From Niabella yanshanensis (GTDB lineage: Bacteria; Bacteroidota; Bacteroidia; Chitinophagales; Chitinophagaceae): 64,000 nucleotides of DNA. The notes beneath the pieces were generated by a model. That model had not been told where the DNA came from. It made no database searches and saw nothing but the letters and a program-made list of their open reading frames with translations. The position numbers were made by a program, and so were the translations under genes. This document shows, piece by piece, positions 1,113 to 21,368 of this stretch. The stretch covers positions 2,976,001 through 3,040,000 of the forward strand of contig NZ_CP139960.1 in assembly GCF_034424215.1 (NCBI RefSeq), written 5' to 3'. Each line of letters starts with the position of its first letter. Within the stretch, counting starts at the first letter, position 1.

Positions 1113-1802
1113 TTAATCTCTTCTGCCTCCCAAATAGATCATAATGTACTGAACCAACGTAACCACTGCTGCCAGCGCAGCAACCACATAGGTTGTAGCA
1201 GCCCATTTTAAGGCGTCCTTGGCTTGAGGATACTCATTATTATTGGTGACATTGGTAGTTTGCAGCCACGCTAATGCCCTTTTGCTGGCATCAAATTCTA
1301 CCGGCAAGGTAATTAAGCTAAAAACAACAGTAATAGCCATTAATATGATACCTATTAATAAAAGTGTAGTACTTCCTGAATATGCCATTACAACTCCTGC
1401 CAGTAACACCCAATTCACGATAGTAGAGCTGAATTGTACTGCAGGCACAAGTTTACTACGCATTTCCAGGGGGCCATATGCCGTAGCGTGCTGCACTGCA
1501 TGGCCGCACTCATGAGCTGCCACTGCTGCGGCCGAAATGCTTCTGCCTTCGTAAACGTCAGGGCTTAAATTCACTGTTTTTTTAGTCGGATCGTAGTGAT
1601 CAGATAAAAAACCGGGAGTAGATATCACCCGCACATCATAAATACCATTTTCCCTGAGCATTTTTTCGGCTACTTCTTTGCCACTCATTCCATTAGCTAA
1701 AGGGATCTGGGCATATTTCTTAAACTTACTTTTCAGCACCATCGACACCAGCATACTGATGCCCACAAAAATCATCGAAACTAAAAAAATGGATGAAGTC
1801 AT
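1113..1802 (-). CDS. YugP-type membrane zinc metallopeptidase
   Basis: A 229-residue protein with an N-terminal membrane segment (about residues 2-22), a zinc motif HECGHAVQHA at about 97-106 and two further hydrophobic segments in the C-terminal half. This is the layout of the neutral zinc metallopeptidase family typified by Bacillus YugP (Zn_peptidase_2). Length fits the family. The substrate is not known for the family. It is monocistronic, with its own terminator, and faces away from radA. Confidence 0.85.
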   Translation of the reverse strand: MTSSIFLVSMIFVGISMLVSMVLKSKFKKYAQIPLANGMSGKEVAEKMLRENGIYDVRVISTPGFLSDHYDPTKKTVNLSPDVYEGRSISAAAVAAHECGHAVQHATAYGPLEMRSKLVPAVQFSSTIVNWVLLAGVVMAYSGSTTLLLIGIILMAITVVFSLITLPVEFDASKRALAWLQTTNVTNNNEYPQAKDALKWAATTYVVAALAAVVTLVQYIMIYLGGRRD

Positions 1803-2283
1803 TTATAAATATAATTTGTTTATGAAAATCAATCAAATCCGGAACCAAAGGCAAATTAGTCTAAAAAACCGACTTTTTGTCATGTAGAAAAATATTTGAG
1901 GGTTTTTTAACCATGGCATGAATTTTATTATATACTTATTATCAAGTAGTTATAAAAAAACCTCTTAATCTGCCAGCCGGATTTTATAATTTGTTAACCT
2001 GCCGCGTCAATAATTTCATTTTTTAATGTTAATCTCAATTTGTACCTTAGTACCAGAATTTAATGGGTTAGTAAGTAAAAGGGCCGAGCGTAAGCAAGGC
2101 CTTTTTGCTTTATATACCTGTTTACTCCCGCTGTACAATGAAACATTTGCAGCGGGTGGTTTATCTTATCTGATTGCTTTAAATCTATCTCAATTCAGGG
2201 CCCGTCGTTAATTGTTTTTCTTTTGTATTAAACATTGCCCCTTAACCGGTAACCCTGTAAATTTCATTACTTAACTTTACCCA
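1803..2283. other. Intergenic region upstream of radA with one hairpin
   Basis: This 481-base gap separates the divergent YugP-type gene and radA. A small hairpin at 2077-2106 (AAAAGGGCC, 12-base loop, GGCCTTTTT) looks terminator-like in both directions and could end a short leader or small RNA. A 61-codon ORF at 2026-2211 has no recognisable features and is not called as a gene. A near-match to the TAnnTTTG element (TAACTTTA, 2272-2279) lies directly before the radA start. Confidence 0.4.
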
Positions 2284-3672
2284 ATGAGTAAAGTGAAAAA
2301 GTCTTTTTTCTGCCAGAACTGTGGTTATGAAAGTGTAAAATGGATCGGACAATGTCCATCTTGCAGCCAGTGGAACAGTTTTGTAGAAGAAGTGATTGAG
2401 AAAGACAATGGCAAACAAAACTGGAATGATTATACCACCAACGACAAGAGAATATCGAAAGCGGTGGCGCTATCTCAGGTAAAAAGTGGGGAAGAGAAAA
2501 GAATAACGACCACAGACGCAGAACTCAACAGGGTTTTAGGAGGCGGTATTGTTAGTGGAAGCATCATATTAGTTGCCGGCGAGCCAGGTATTGGCAAAAG
2601 CACTTTATTTCTTCAAAGCGGCTTACAGTTGCAGGATCAGCGGGTTTTGTATATCAGTGGAGAAGAAAGCGAGCAACAAATTAAAATGCGCGCTGACAGA
2701 TTATACAACAACGGTGCGTCGATCAATAATGATAATTTCTTCCTGCTAACAGAAACCTCTACTCAAACTATTTTCCAGGAAATAAAGAAACTAAAGCCGG
2801 ATGTAGTGATTGTAGACTCTGTTCAGACATTACAGTCCAACCTGATAGATGCCTCCCAGGGAAGTATTTCACAGATCAAAGAATGTGCAGGGGAGTTTCA
2901 GCGTTACGCCAAAGAAACCAATACCCCCGTATTCCTCATCGGACACATTACCAAAGAAGGAGGTATTGCGGGCCCTAAGATACTGGAACACATGGTAGAT
3001 GTGGTACTGCAGTTTGAGGGTGACCGGCATTATGCATATCGCATATTACGCACGCTAAAGAACCGCTTTGGCAGCACCAGCGAGCTGGGTATTTATGAAA
3101 TGACCGATAAAGGCATGCGTGGTGTAGCCAATCCCAGCGAAATACTCATTACTCAAAAAGAAGAGCAGCTTAGTGGTATTGCCATTGCAGCTACACTCGA
3201 AGGTGTACGCCCCTTATTGATAGAGGTACAATCGCTGGTAACACAATCCGTGTATGGCACACCTCAAAGAACGGTAAGCGGATTCGATCTGAGACGTTTG
3301 CAGCTATTGCTCGCTGTGCTGGAAAAAAGAGGCGGATTTCATTTTGGTGTAAAAGATGTGTTCCTGAATATCGCCGGGGGTATTAAAGTAGAAGACCCTT
3401 CTATTGACCTGGCCGTTCTTTGCGCCCTGCTCTCATCGTATGAAGATGTGCCTTTGCCCCAAAGTATTTGTTTTGCCGGTGAGATTGGTTTAAGTGGTGA
3501 AATACGCGCTGTCAATAAAATTGATCAACGTATAGCCGAAGCCGAGAAACTGGGCTTTGAAAAGATAATCGTATCAAAATACAATCAATCGGTAAAGCAG
3601 AGCCGGCAAAAGTTTAATATAGAAGTGATCACCATGGCCCGGGTTGAAGAAGTATATCAATATTTATTTTAA
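2284..3672 (+). CDS. radA: DNA repair protein RadA
   Basis: A 462-residue cytoplasmic ATPase that promotes branch migration of recombination intermediates. The order is an N-terminal four-cysteine zinc finger (CQNCGYE...CPSCSQW, about 10-30), a RecA-like core with Walker A GEPGIGKST (about 98-106), the RadA-specific KNRFGSTSE motif (about 259-267), and a Lon-protease-like C-terminal domain without the usual catalytic role. Length is standard. The ATG at 2284 is preceded by a near-consensus -7 element. comF follows in the same direction after a 120-base gap. Confidence 0.96.
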   Translation: MSKVKKSFFCQNCGYESVKWIGQCPSCSQWNSFVEEVIEKDNGKQNWNDYTTNDKRISKAVALSQVKSGEEKRITTTDAELNRVLGGGIVSGSIILVAGEPGIGKSTLFLQSGLQLQDQRVLYISGEESEQQIKMRADRLYNNGASINNDNFFLLTETSTQTIFQEIKKLKPDVVIVDSVQTLQSNLIDASQGSISQIKECAGEFQRYAKETNTPVFLIGHITKEGGIAGPKILEHMVDVVLQFEGDRHYAYRILRTLKNRFGSTSELGIYEMTDKGMRGVANPSEILITQKEEQLSGIAIAATLEGVRPLLIEVQSLVTQSVYGTPQRTVSGFDLRRLQLLLAVLEKRGGFHFGVKDVFLNIAGGIKVEDPSIDLAVLCALLSSYEDVPLPQSICFAGEIGLSGEIRAVNKIDQRIAEAEKLGFEKIIVSKYNQSVKQSRQKFNIEVITMARVEEVYQYLF

Positions 3673-17666: not shown

Positions 17667-18497
17667 TTACTCCCCGTTAACACGAACAATTTTTGAGTAA
17701 GTTTTGGTTCCGTCTTTATCGATCTGTGCAATACGTATATAATAATTTTCAGCGTTAGTAATACTATCCTTGTCTTTGTTACAGCTTATTTGTACAAACG
17801 CAACAAAGCTAATAGCAACAGTGGTCCGCAATATTGTCTTTTTACGGCGCACTAAAAGGAGTAAGATCAAAACTAAGGCAAAGTAGGGTAGCACAGACAA
17901 ACTAATGCCCGCTTTGCCCGTCCACTCATAGCTTAGGGCAACATCACTATTACCATTCTCTGCTTTTGATTTTAGAGTGCCAATAGTAACAAATTGTTCC
18001 CCATCGGTAGACGCTTCAATTTCGAAATGACCATTATTCACCTCTTTTTCGGTGGTCCAGTTTACATGTAAGTTATTCCCCTTTATATACGCATCAATGC
18101 TGCCGAAGATTACCCAGAGGGCTACATCACCGGTAACGCTTAAAGGAGCCGGGGAAGCGCAGGGCGCGGTCTCCTCTGTTTGCCAGGAAAATACAGTGCT
18201 GGCAGTACCGGGAGGTTGGATAGTATTTGCAGTGCTTGAAAAGAGGGTGAATCCTCCATTAAGAGTAAGAAGCCAGAGGTTCTGTTCACTATCCCAGGCT
18301 ATGGCTATCGGAATATCTGGATTTCCGGCTACCGTCCCAACTCCTTCGTAATAAGGTTTGCCGTCCCCCACTTCGGGGTCGGTGCCTAGCGTTAATGTTA
18401 CCGGACCGGCAATACAAGCCCCGTTTACAGTAATCGTTTGAGCGTAGATAGCTCCATAAAACAGTAGCGCTATAATGAGGGTGAAAAGACTTTTCAT
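17667..18497 (-). CDS. Secreted protein with an adhesion-like domain interrupted by a hydrophobic hairpin
   Basis: A 276-residue protein with a clear signal peptide (about 1-19, ending YAQ). Residues about 135-190 resemble the Ig/fibronectin-like module often found before sorting tails in Bacteroidota (VNWTTEKEVNNGHFEIEAS). The end of that module (YYIRIAQIDKDGTKTYSKI) appears only at about 250-276. In between are two hydrophobic stretches (about 199-215 and 222-238) around a basic RRKK turn, ending in ISCNKDKD, a lipobox-like cysteine. It is the last gene of the collar operon. Role unknown. Confidence 0.7.
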   Translation of the reverse strand: MKSLFTLIIALLFYGAIYAQTITVNGACIAGPVTLTLGTDPEVGDGKPYYEGVGTVAGNPDIPIAIAWDSEQNLWLLTLNGGFTLFSSTANTIQPPGTASTVFSWQTEETAPCASPAPLSVTGDVALWVIFGSIDAYIKGNNLHVNWTTEKEVNNGHFEIEASTDGEQFVTIGTLKSKAENGNSDVALSYEWTGKAGISLSVLPYFALVLILLLLVRRKKTILRTTVAISFVAFVQISCNKDKDSITNAENYYIRIAQIDKDGTKTYSKIVRVNGE

Positions 18498-18541
18498 ATT
18501 GTGGTTCTTTAGGGTTTAGTGTGTTTTATCATTTATTTACC

Positions 18542-19117
18542 TTAAATGCTCCTGCATTTGATCCCCAGCTGGTTTTCGGCATAAATTATTTCTTTCTGCT
18601 TTAATGCTTCATTGGGTTTGCAGAAAAAGGCTTCCAGTGTATCCGCATGTGCCTCGGTCAGGCCCTCCAGCGAGGCAATTAAATTATTGTTGACATACAC
18701 TTCTTTCAAACGGGTCAGCTGTTGAAGGGGCTTTAAAGAACTGATCTTGTTGGACTGAACATATAGTTGCTCAAGCTCAGCGAGCTCTTCAATTCCCTCC
18801 AGGCTTTCTATTTCATTATTAAAAAGAAAAAGTGACTTTATATTCTTAAGCGCTCTTAATGGCGTTATATTTTTGATTTGGTGATGGGTTACCACCAGGA
18901 TTTCTAAATCGTGAAAATATTGCAACCCTGAAAGATTGGTCAACTCGAAAGTCATGTTTGGGTAGGGTGCACGCGGTCCAGCCATCCTTAAAACCTTTGA
19001 CGAAAAAAGTTGCCTGACTTCCGTGTCACTGGGAGGGTTTAAATGACCCAATACAGTAATACCCAACGCATCTTTCCATTGTTGCTCTAATTCGTTCCAC
19101 CGGTTTATTTCTGGCAT
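18542..19117 (-). CDS. Leucine-rich repeat protein
   Basis: A 191-residue protein with about five 22-residue leucine-rich repeats (LKNIKSLFLFNNEIESLEG, LAELEQLYVQSNKISSLKP, LTRLKEVYVNNNLIASLEG), of the SDS22/internalin spacing. No signal peptide is visible from the chosen ATG at 19117 (MPEINRWNEL); a longer frame to 19249 would overlap the upstream collar gene and is rejected. LRRs bind proteins. It lies 16 bases behind the third collar gene, so it is probably part of the same operon. Confidence 0.75.
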   Translation of the reverse strand: MPEINRWNELEQQWKDALGITVLGHLNPPSDTEVRQLFSSKVLRMAGPRAPYPNMTFELTNLSGLQYFHDLEILVVTHHQIKNITPLRALKNIKSLFLFNNEIESLEGIEELAELEQLYVQSNKISSLKPLQQLTRLKEVYVNNNLIASLEGLTEAHADTLEAFFCKPNEALKQKEIIYAENQLGIKCRSI

Positions 19118-19133
19118 AGTTTGATGTCTTATC

Positions 19134-19664
19134 TTAATTCGTCGAAGGGAATATTCCATATAGCGAAATACAAAAATTGATCGCGAGTATAGGCTGAACA
19201 ATTGAGAAAGGCGAAGGCGTACCACCCGCAAGAGCCACTGTTGCAGCATTCATCTGCACCGTTTCTGATGCGGTTAATGTGACCTTATATTCTTTATCCA
19301 AACCGCTGGTATGGGCCAGGTAAGTCCCTGCCGGTGCGCTGGTATCTCCTTCATCTGACACCGCTATTACAGAATGGTTATGTACAGGCAACTGTGACGT
19401 TATTAACGTAACGGCTTCAGTACCCGCCTTCTCTCCAAGAGTGCGTGGGGAAAGTCCTGGACCAGTACCCTGGTGTATAGGTACTCTCCCGCGTAAATCA
19501 GGTACCGCAAATGTTGATTGTCCATCGCCGCCATAGGTAGTGCCTATTAATGTAAAAAGCGCTTCATACTCCGCAATAGACAGCAGCTGGCCATTACATA
19601 GCGCCCATCCTACAGGTATCCTGTTAAAAGCAAACATGGCAATCATTCCTAATAAAGGGTTCAT
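19134..19664 (-). CDS. Phage tail collar domain protein (MdpB-like), copy 3
   Basis: A 176-residue protein with the tail-collar signature: GWALCNGQLLSI near the N-terminus, then GTTYGGDGQSTFAVPDLRGR and a His pair LPVHNHSV. It is the third of three tandem paralogues. Such proteins are called microcystin-dependent protein-like or tail fibre proteins, but no other phage structural gene is nearby. There is no signal peptide, so export, if any, would need another route. Confidence 0.88.
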   Translation of the reverse strand: MNPLLGMIAMFAFNRIPVGWALCNGQLLSIAEYEALFTLIGTTYGGDGQSTFAVPDLRGRVPIHQGTGPGLSPRTLGEKAGTEAVTLITSQLPVHNHSVIAVSDEGDTSAPAGTYLAHTSGLDKEYKVTLTASETVQMNAATVALAGGTPSPFSIVQPILAINFCISLYGIFPSTN

Positions 19665-19720
19665 CGGTTATTTTTTAAGTTTATATATCCTTTGGTACCT
19701 CCCACGCAAGTGTATCTTCA

Positions 19721-20239
19721 CTAATCAAATTGAGGGAAAACACCCTCCATTGCTATACAATAATTAAGGGCCAGGGAAGGTTGCATGATAGAAAAAGCCG
19801 TGTTAGAACCGGTATAGCTCACCATTGATGCATTCATTTGCACGGTAGCGGGAGCTGTTACAGTGGTTTTATACTCTTTATCAAAAACCCCGGTGTTAGC
19901 CCTAAAAGCGCCCGCAGGAACGGCTGTATCACCTGCCGCAGATGATGCATTGACCAAATGATTATGCGCCGGGAGGTTTGACAATAACAAAGTGCCGTTT
20001 GGCACTCCCTCTTGCATACCCACCGCGCCAGAGGCATTTTCCTGCGAAACCGGTGCTCTTCCCCTCAGGTCCGGAAGAGCAAATGTAGTTTGTCCGTCCC
20101 CGCCATATTGCGTTCCTATCAACGCAAACAACTGTGTATTTTGTTGCAAACTTAAGATCTGACCATTGCAATAAGCCCATCCGCGGGGAGGAAAATTAAA
20201 GCCAAATATGCAAATCATTCCTACAAAAGGCACAAGCAT
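19721..20239 (-). CDS. Phage tail collar domain protein (MdpB-like), copy 2
   Basis: A 172-residue paralogue: GWAYCNGQILSL, GTQYGGDGQTTFALPDLRGR, LPAHNHLV. It is co-directional with its neighbours, 56 bases from copy 3 and 49 from copy 1. Compared with copies 1 and 3 it lacks the LGEKAG/LGEIAG stretch between the two signature blocks and has a shorter Gly-rich link. The central ASSAAGDTAVPAG part matches the ASSEAGDAASPAG part of copy 1. Confidence 0.88.
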   Translation of the reverse strand: MLVPFVGMICIFGFNFPPRGWAYCNGQILSLQQNTQLFALIGTQYGGDGQTTFALPDLRGRAPVSQENASGAVGMQEGVPNGTLLLSNLPAHNHLVNASSAAGDTAVPAGAFRANTGVFDKEYKTTVTAPATVQMNASMVSYTGSNTAFSIMQPSLALNYCIAMEGVFPQFD

Positions 20240-20288
20240 AATATATTGATTTAAATCTTCTTTGAAAATTAGTTTTAAACGCTGTAGT

Positions 20289-20807
20289 CTAGTTGCGTGA
20301 AGGAAAAGTTCCCACCAGTGCTATACAATAGTTCACAACCAAATAGGGTTGCATAAGCGAAACTGCCGAACCGCTACCCGCATTGGCTATCATTGCAGCA
20401 TTCATTGCTACCTGGGCACCCGAGGTTTTATACTCTCCATCTTTTAGGCCGGTGTTGGCAAAAAATGCTCCGGCCGGACTGGCCGCATCACCTGCCTCGG
20501 ATGAAGCATTAATAAGATGCCGGTGTTGCGGCATATTGGCTATGGTCAGGTTCACAGATTCTTTCCCAGCGATCTCTCCAAGAGTATAGTCAGGAAGGCC
20601 TAAACCCTGTCCAAAACCAATAGCAGTCCTTCCTCTGAGATCGGGCAGGGCAAAAGTGGTCGTCCCATTGCCCCCGTAACTGGTTCCTAACAGCGCAAAC
20701 AATGCCTGATTTTGGGCGATAGACATTATCTGGCCGCTGCATGTTGCCCAGCCCTTAGGGGCAAAGCCGAACGCAAACTGTATTATAGTAGCAAGGTAGG
20801 TTTCCAT
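20289..20807 (-). CDS. Phage tail collar domain protein (MdpB-like), copy 1
   Basis: A 172-residue paralogue: GWATCSGQIMSI, GTSYGGNGTTTFALPDLRGR, MPQHRHLI. It is the first of the triplet in the direction of transcription and starts 21 bases after the Tat-signal gene. All three copies end with a similar MQPxLxxNYCI-like strand before the C-terminus, so they probably form the same fold or a mixed trimer. Confidence 0.88.
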   Translation of the reverse strand: METYLATIIQFAFGFAPKGWATCSGQIMSIAQNQALFALLGTSYGGNGTTTFALPDLRGRTAIGFGQGLGLPDYTLGEIAGKESVNLTIANMPQHRHLINASSEAGDAASPAGAFFANTGLKDGEYKTSGAQVAMNAAMIANAGSGSAVSLMQPYLVVNYCIALVGTFPSRN

Positions 20808-20828
20808 AAAAATATACTTAATGATTAA

Positions 20829-21368
20829 TTATACCAGCATACTTGCCGATTTCAAAACTTTAAATTGAGTAGTAATGTGATTGTGAGTACCGATAGTGGT
20901 TTGGGCAGAATATAACCGGGCTCCGTCATTATTTACCTGAAAAAAGGCAGCTAAGCAATTAGACAACTCTTTTGTTTCACAGAGAGCCTTCATTTCAAAT
21001 TGATTCAGCGTACCCATCGCAACACCTTCTTTGTACAAGTTTATAATTACGTCTGAAGGTTTGTTTTTGTTAGCAGCCCAATAGATCCATATCGGTTCTG
21101 CAACTATATTATCTTCGGGAAAGTATACTAATTGCCCTTCACGAGGCTGATGCCCCTGACAGGCTACAATTTCCTTTTTTGCTTTTAACATACCCGGGTA
21201 GGCTTTGGCGGATCGGCGCCGGCAGAAGTCCTCCCAGTGCCTTTTTAAATCTGAGACAAAGCTATTATCGGTAAACAGACCGGCAGCATTACTCCCGAGG
21301 GCTACCCCTGCTGTTAGAATGGCCAGGTTACCTAAAAAACCTCTCCGGCTTGCTTGCAGTGCACTCAC
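20829..21368 (-). CDS. Tat-signal protein of unknown function, first gene of the collar operon
   Basis: A 179-residue protein with a twin-arginine signal (SRRGFLGNL at about 7-15, then a hydrophobic run), so a folded exported product is likely. The mature part has no motif that I recognise; it contains three cysteines and a late GTHNHITTQF stretch that recalls the HNH-like loops of the collar proteins behind it. It leads a six-gene minus-strand unit with 16-56 base gaps. No TAnnTTTG element was found in the 168 bases upstream. Confidence 0.75.
   Translation of the reverse strand: MSALQASRRGFLGNLAILTAGVALGSNAAGLFTDNSFVSDLKRHWEDFCRRRSAKAYPGMLKAKKEIVACQGHQPREGQLVYFPEDNIVAEPIWIYWAANKNKPSDVIINLYKEGVAMGTLNQFEMKALCETKELSNCLAAFFQVNNDGARLYSAQTTIGTHNHITTQFKVLKSASMLV

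Follow-up and report, generated by a model that had tools for sequence, protein, structure and literature searches.

The locus described here raises the question of what three tandem phage-tail-collar genes do among the genes that surround them, and of what becomes of the protein encoded by the last gene of the set. It lies in a 64,000-nucleotide stretch of the Niabella yanshanensis genome (contig NZ_CP139960.1, positions 2,976,001 to 3,040,000; hereafter the window), where a minus-strand run of six open reading frames (ORFs) extends from 21368 to 17667 with intergenic gaps of 16–56 bases. An earlier note on this DNA had described six co-directional genes, encoding a twin-arginine translocation (Tat) signal protein, three collar proteins, a leucine-rich-repeat (LRR) protein and an interrupted adhesion-like protein, and the ORF coordinates confirm this layout. 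The answer offered here turns on the last gene, gene 6, which belongs to a large, little-described family whose split fibronectin-III-like (Fn3) domain is probably lipid-anchored. On balance, we favour a reading in which the end of the gene 6 protein is a split Fn3 anchor, whereby an internal lipobox would be cut and a lipidated hairpin of strands F and G would rejoin its passenger. This reading draws on a conserved sequence pattern, a fold predicted from both parts of the domain and a natural two-gene form; lipidation, cleavage, pairing after cleavage, the final membrane and the fate of the first of two transmembrane segments (TM1 and TM2) are inferred.

The split Fn3 domain of gene 6

The AlphaFold (AF2) model of gene 6 builds one Fn3 domain from the parts that precede and follow a TM1–TM2 hairpin (Table 1). 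The predicted beta-sandwich, which qualifies the domain as Fn3, aligned to Fn3 and Fn3-like domains, the targets of this structural alignment being Foldseek's own top matches. No NCBIfam or Pfam model scored over its cut-off on the domain of the window copy. Of the earlier description of gene 6, the interruption stands, being a conserved device in 120 distinct sequences, whereas the adhesion-like label found a Pfam Cleaved_Adhesin match below cut-off (E 0.1). The tail follows the pattern LPVxFG..., hydrophobic stretch, basic residues, second hydrophobic stretch, [SAG]C, xYxRIxQVDKDGxxxYSKVVxV, and in an alignment of 25 members (A1) the Cys was the sole invariant residue between the two Fn3 parts.

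Table 1. Coordinates in the window of gene 6, its sequence elements and the other genes of the operon
Feature	Position	Strand	Remarks
Gene 6, exported protein ending in split Fn3 domain	17667..18497	(-)	276 aa
Gene 6 N-terminal signal peptide, residues ~1-20	18438..18497	(-)	read from sequence; helix 2-13 in model
Fn3 strands A-E, residues 130-195	17913..18110	(-)	AF2 block means 91-96 for 131-190; aligns to Fn3/Fn3-like domains
TM1 in E-F loop, residues 200-218, then basic loop	17844..17900	(-)	helix in AF2 model
TM2, lipoprotein-signal-like, residues 221-238	17784..17837	(-)	model helix stops one residue before Cys239
Lipobox-like Cys239	17781..17783	(-)	Cys 119/120; invariant in alignments A1, A2, A3
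Fn3 strands F-G, residues 253-275, on proposed lipidated piece	17673..17741	(-)	AF2 block means 89-94 for 251-276
Gene 5, leucine-rich-repeat protein	18542..19117	(-)	191 aa; LRR_4 E 1.6e-18
Gene 4, collar protein 3	19134..19664	(-)	176 aa; PF07484 E 1.5e-28
Gene 3, collar protein 2	19721..20239	(-)	172 aa; PF07484 E 7.4e-29
Gene 2, collar protein 1	20289..20807	(-)	172 aa; PF07484 E 2.2e-26
Gene 1, Tat-signal protein, fold unassigned	20829..21368	(-)	179 aa, GTG start; TIGR01409 over cut-off

The family of split-domain copies

A search with gene 6 found matches in 141 of 195 family genomes, and among the matches listed only those in the window genome (G000), G022 and G119 reached residue 265 or beyond, with at least 12 in each, while the others stopped by residue 211. 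In 20 loci that were read, another 25 ORFs carried the tail pattern given above, the one in L062 being truncated after the Cys. The A1 genome scan, selected on the strand-F peptide, returned 103 relatives, and the best 80 of the 103 gave 77 loci, all from Niabella records except L155, L156, L157 and L161; three of the 77 (L086, L158 and L159) hold no intact copy, their frames being broken. The window genome itself carries at least 14 split-domain copies, including one in L051 and one in L242. Copy numbers are lower bounds, as at most 12 candidates per genome were scored for gene 6, at most 9 in a further genome search and at most 13 in the order scan with the hairpin-to-end alignment (A2) and in the phylum scan, so that fused forms in other genera could be missed. 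In the phylum scan (395 genomes), end-to-end matches were found only in G000 and G022 among the matches listed. Broken reading frames affect the split domain, or the operon that carries it, at L062/L210, L086, L158 and L159.

The split class comprises 127 rows with 55–71 residues between the two parts of the domain and 0–7 residues after strand G. These rows represent 120 distinct sequences (92 from Niabella records, 25 from G000, G022 and G119, and 3 from other records), drawn from the best 80 of the 103 relatives and from loci of other searches, with further copies in L165 and L242 standing outside the count; 117 of the 120 therefore come from the window's genus or from Niabella records. An unsplit class of 36 rows from 32 loci, which were picked by likeness to gene 6, A1 or the collars and some of which overlap, has 9–29 residues between the parts; 35 of these rows run on for 77–96 residues (the remaining one ends at a locus edge).

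The Cys is present in 119 of the 120 split sequences, and a basic pair separates the hydrophobic stretches in 119; of those with the Cys, 117/119 have S, G or A at -1 and 118/119 have K or R two places after it. This internal pattern is less mixed than the one at lipoprotein-like N-termini across 464 kb of the window genome, where S, G or A stood at -1 in 40/56 and K or R two after the Cys in 19/56, under a permissive rule that admits false ends.

Two-gene and permuted forms

When A2 was searched against 396 genomes of the order, matches were obtained in 71 (E <=1e-5), and among the matches listed only G000, G022, G119 and G441 (one copy) matched from end to end. Most other rows covered strands F-G only, inside long frames, and small open frames matching A2 were found in G008, G466, G108 and G004, as well as in G000 and G119. 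In G466 (L206), a 336-aa exported protein stops after strand E and is followed, 27 bases on, by a 63-aa lipoprotein with strands F-G only. The same two-gene layout occurs in G008 (L205; 335 and 64 aa, 26 bases apart) and in G108 (L207; 333 and 57 aa, 3 bases apart), so that three of the four g9 genomes sampled have it, the fourth (G179) being without a match. Identities between L205 and L206 were 229/335 for the first gene and 58/63 for the second, and between L205 and L207 137/331 and 20/57, respectively; for the second gene, the L205–L206 comparison gave rates of non-synonymous (dN) and synonymous (dS) substitution of 0.050 and 1.40. The second gene has its own signal-peptide-like N-terminal stretch, and no remnant of TM1 could be read in the first.

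A further arrangement was seen in G004 (L204), in which ORF 1563-3044 ends in an LPVKF strand-A-like tail and overlaps a lipoprotein at 3044-3361 (+) reading F-G-B-C-C'-E, as if it were a circularly permuted Fn3 one strand short; this is one locus, and a lead. Two other small frames were recorded. One in the window genome (L202:3794-3979, +) encodes TM2, the lipobox Cys and strands F-G, is preceded by nothing recognisable as Fn3, and may be a remnant or a stand-alone partner; the other, near a G119 contig end (L208:648-878, +), is an open frame with the hairpin and F-G, with no Fn3 part found in front.

Relation to known anchoring and sorting systems

The closest described model is NCBIfam NF058595 (invert_tail, 'lipo-invert putative C-terminal anchoring domain'), to which TM1, the loop, TM2 and the Cys gave weak matches. 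These end at profile positions 72–75 of 113 and mostly start at 25–32; 33 of 70 members matched at E <=10 (best 9.7e-05), and individually 7/10 and 4/10 proteins did so at E <=1. The bit scores shown for the split family, 11.8–16.9, lie below the NF058595 cut-off of 37, and the window copy had no match. NCBI curators have thus already modelled a similar architecture, as far as the name line of NF058595, on which our comparison relied, describes it.

With bacterial lipoproteins handled by Lgt and LspA, the tail shares a basic n-region, a hydrophobic stretch, S/G/A-C and the C-x-K/R already counted; it differs in the fused form, where the signal lies inside the chain and a further hydrophobic stretch precedes it, whereas in the two-gene form the signal is N-terminal. 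The sequence elements of a type II signal are therefore present without the N-terminal placement in the fused form, and lipidation and cleavage are predicted. The Bacteroidetes lipoprotein surface export signal is given in PMC5080379 as C-X-K-(D/E)2; in 71/119 split sequences C-x-K/R is followed by an acidic residue in one of the two adjoining positions.

The type A sorting domain of the type IX secretion system (T9SS; PF18962) provides a further likeness, as the same Fn3 domain in the unsplit relatives precedes the 77–96 residues mentioned above, which carry an xPNP-like motif in 34 of the 36 rows. The split-form chain, by contrast, stops shortly after strand G, and gene 6 does not qualify as T9SS cargo. 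The MYXO-CTERM tag recognised by myxosortase is described in PMC11980579 as a C-terminal tag with an invariant Cys, borne by dozens of proteins per genome; on that account the Cys motif comes first in the tag, whereas in the split family the Cys follows the second hydrophobic stretch and the Fn3 domain is split. In the open-access literature we found no report on an internal lipobox, a split Fn3 or Fn3 strand complementation, 'lipo-invert' not having been a search term.

T9SS components and processing enzymes in the genus

PF18962 had no matches in any of four genomes of the window's genus, the window genome included, whereas two controls gave 37 and 34. Of eight additional Niabella records (genome completeness not stated), six had none and two had one, so that each of 12 genus genomes has 0 or 1. 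SprA was over cut-off in none of the four genus genomes and in both controls, G022 having one weak 16.7-bit match. The genomes with the two-gene form hold 24–29 T9SS tails.

LspA is present once each in G000, G022, G119 and the two controls and twice in G189. A dedicated additional LspA was considered and rejected, as the three domain-bearing genomes have a single copy while the domain-less G189 has two. G189, of the same genus, had no gene 6, PF18962 or SprA match but possesses these two LspA genes.

Proposed mechanism and alternative explanations

In the mechanism that we propose, Sec would export the gene 6 chain by means of its N-terminal signal; strands A-E would reach the periplasm, TM1 would stop transfer and the basic loop would stay inside. 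TM2, acting as an internal type II signal, would start transfer again, after which Lgt would lipidate Cys239 and LspA would cleave ahead of this residue. Once released, the lipidated hairpin of strands F and G (38 residues) could pair with strands A-E to give one Fn3, the lipid residing on a separate, non-covalently bound chain. TM1 would be needed in the fused form because the chain would have to return to the cytoplasm before a lipoprotein signal could act. The two-gene form is the strongest pointer to this mechanism, because there other bacteria encode separately what Niabella would do by cutting.

Several observations weigh against the mechanism. The fate of TM1 is its weak point, since the LspA cut would leave the passenger of the fused form tethered by TM1 to the inner membrane, a problem from which the two-gene form is free. 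Foldseek gave no match at E <0.001 for the whole gene 6 model. One of the 120 sequences (L089) lacks the Cys, and residue -3 is less constrained than in a classic lipobox. A hydrophobic stretch at the N-terminus was present in 94/120 ORFs (starts uncurated), and the full C-x-K-(D/E)2 of PMC5080379 occurs in only 2/119. Within the window's genus, G189 had no gene 6 match, and in other genera the two-gene form was found in 3/4 genomes of g9, the permuted form in 1/3 of g5 and the fused form in 1/6 of g35. Furthermore, the domain is not simply a T9SS replacement, as it occurs together with 42–44 T9SS tails in four non-Niabella records (L155, 44; L156, 43; L157, 43; L161, 42), and with 23 in G441. 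T9SS loss accordingly accompanies the Niabella expansion but is not needed for the domain, which is found in genomes rich in T9SS tails.

It is unlikely that the TM1–TM2 hairpin is a plain two-pass inner-membrane anchor on a chain that is never cut, with the Cys kept for some other reason. Such an anchor would account for the existence of TM1, and AF2 does fold the uncut chain into one Fn3 with its hairpin; however, the residues around the Cys resemble a lipoprotein start (S/G/A at -1, C-x-K) and the two-gene form puts the F-G hairpin on a separate lipoprotein. We regard as rather more improbable the proposal that TM1 and the basic loop act as a sorting tag like PEP-CTERM, GlyGly-CTERM or MYXO-CTERM, for which a dedicated intramembrane protease would make the cut, the Cys part being a second step or a by-product. 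MYXO-CTERM tags include a transmembrane segment and basic residues, and the succession of TM1 and basic residues resembles tags of this kind, with weak matches below cut-off to LPXTG, PEP-CTERM and MYXO-CTERM models. Set against this are A1, without an invariant column just before or inside TM1, and exosortase (PF09721), which had no match in any of six genomes (rhombosortase and myxosortase were not searched), so that the exosortase route was rejected. The two-gene loci could also be broken copies of the fused gene, uninformative on processing, as the frame-broken copies listed above and the unmatched genome among the four of g9 would allow, but this seems very improbable given an arrangement common to three genomes of one genus at the L205–L207 identities cited, a second gene with its own signal-peptide-like start and the dN and dS values reported, and a first gene in which no TM1 remnant is read.

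The operon and its collar genes

The gene assignments made earlier for the remainder of the operon were borne out by profile matches, for gene 1 to the Tat-signal model TIGR01409 (19.3 bits, cut-off 16.7), for the three tandem collar proteins (genes 2–4) to PF07484 at E values between 2.2e-26 and 7.4e-29, and for gene 5 to LRR_4; the ATG start of gene 5 was our choice, the LRR_4 scan having used 18542-19120. The AF2 model of gene 1 was unusable (mean pLDDT, the predicted local distance difference test, 42.1). The claim that the flanking genes look exported applies to genes 1 and 6 and not to gene 5, in which no signal peptide could be read. The window genome (5.54 Mb, single contig) has three PF07484 matches, all in this operon. 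Promoter and terminator scans were dropped as operon evidence, as their counts were not usable against expectation and shuffles: two Bacteroidota-type promoter matches occurred in the window, neither near the operon, with 2.99 expected, and a second scan gave 12 promoter-like and 8 terminator-like sites versus 7.9 and 4.8 in shuffles.

In N. hibiscisoli (L085) and N. defluvii (L086), the end of gene 1, the collars, the LRR gene and gene 6 follow one another as in the window, the gene 1 homologues being partial where the locus edge cuts them and gene 5 homologues being present in both. The neighbours of these operons resemble the DUF1501 and DUF1800 genes of the window by sequence likeness, and since both records keep the window's order beside like flanking genes, the gene order is more than chance. 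Both operon regions also carry frame breaks. Beyond these records, a gene 1 homologue was found in one of 195 family genomes, namely the window's own, whereas PF07484 matched in 61 of the 195, with none in G022, G119 or G189, the three other genomes of the window's genus. We read 20 collar loci, each from a different genome among the 60 others that had a PF07484 match, and found no homologue of gene 1 or gene 5 near the collars in any of them. The six genes thus co-occur in order in two further Niabella records but rarely outside the genus, and a widespread six-gene module was rejected on the single gene 1 match in the 195 genomes and on the 20 loci read. Conservation of the set extends to part of Niabella, with no instance seen farther afield; the operon is narrow-range and its collar part of a common kind.

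Three collars were counted by script in 18 of the 20 loci, and one of the remaining two (L066) has a third collar in the genome search. A Peripla_BP_6-like gene and a formyltransferase-like gene were each present in 16/20 (L065-L084), counted by likeness to the L082 gene pair, from which the Pfam names are taken. An ORF of >700 aa lay within four genes of the collars in 19/20 loci (a crude count that includes some ORFs that are not exported), and several of the large ORFs near these triplets have T9SS-type tails. One family genome has 18 collar matches, in tandem among the matches listed (G136:C4:489334-500177). In the open-access literature no report was found on tandem collars in Bacteroidetes or a tail collar in Chitinophaga, and the MdpB literature held nothing on such a collar arrangement among the matches listed.

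The earlier note had also considered a role related to contractile injection, while remarking that no other phage gene was nearby. When ten flanking proteins were compared with PHROGs, five found a family there, but in no case was it a tail, head or other structural family; sheath, tube and baseplate genes were likewise absent from these ten neighbours, the rest of the genome not having been searched for them. A phage or contractile-injection remnant was rejected, as no neighbour among the ten supports it. That the operon is a module for contractile injection, or for display by phage-derived parts, is scarcely credible, for although three collar proteins are present, no tail, sheath or baseplate gene lies among the ten neighbours, and genes 1 and 5 were found in none of the other 20 collar loci read. 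The collar and LRR proteins probably serve, or ride with, the anchored gene 6 protein, as is suggested by analogy with relatives whose collar triplets often lie near large ORFs, several of them T9SS-tailed. The collar proteins themselves have no signal peptides.

Implications for anchoring in Niabella

A broader proposal, which we put forward tentatively and with some doubt, is that of a general non-covalent tether in which a small lipoprotein completes the unfinished Fn3 of the passenger by supplying the strands that it lacks. Three genetic forms of the tether would occur, namely fused (Niabella), two-gene (L205-L207) and permuted (L204, with strand A on the passenger), and in Niabella it might have spread to many proteins as the T9SS was lost, a second protease removing TM1 so that the complex reaches the outer membrane or the surface. 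Should the split anchor operate as proposed, one folded domain would be formed from two chains made by an internal signal-peptidase cut, with the lipid on the small chain. This would be an unusual anchoring principle, and it would point to a way of anchoring exported proteins in a genus where hardly any of the T9SS parts looked for were found.

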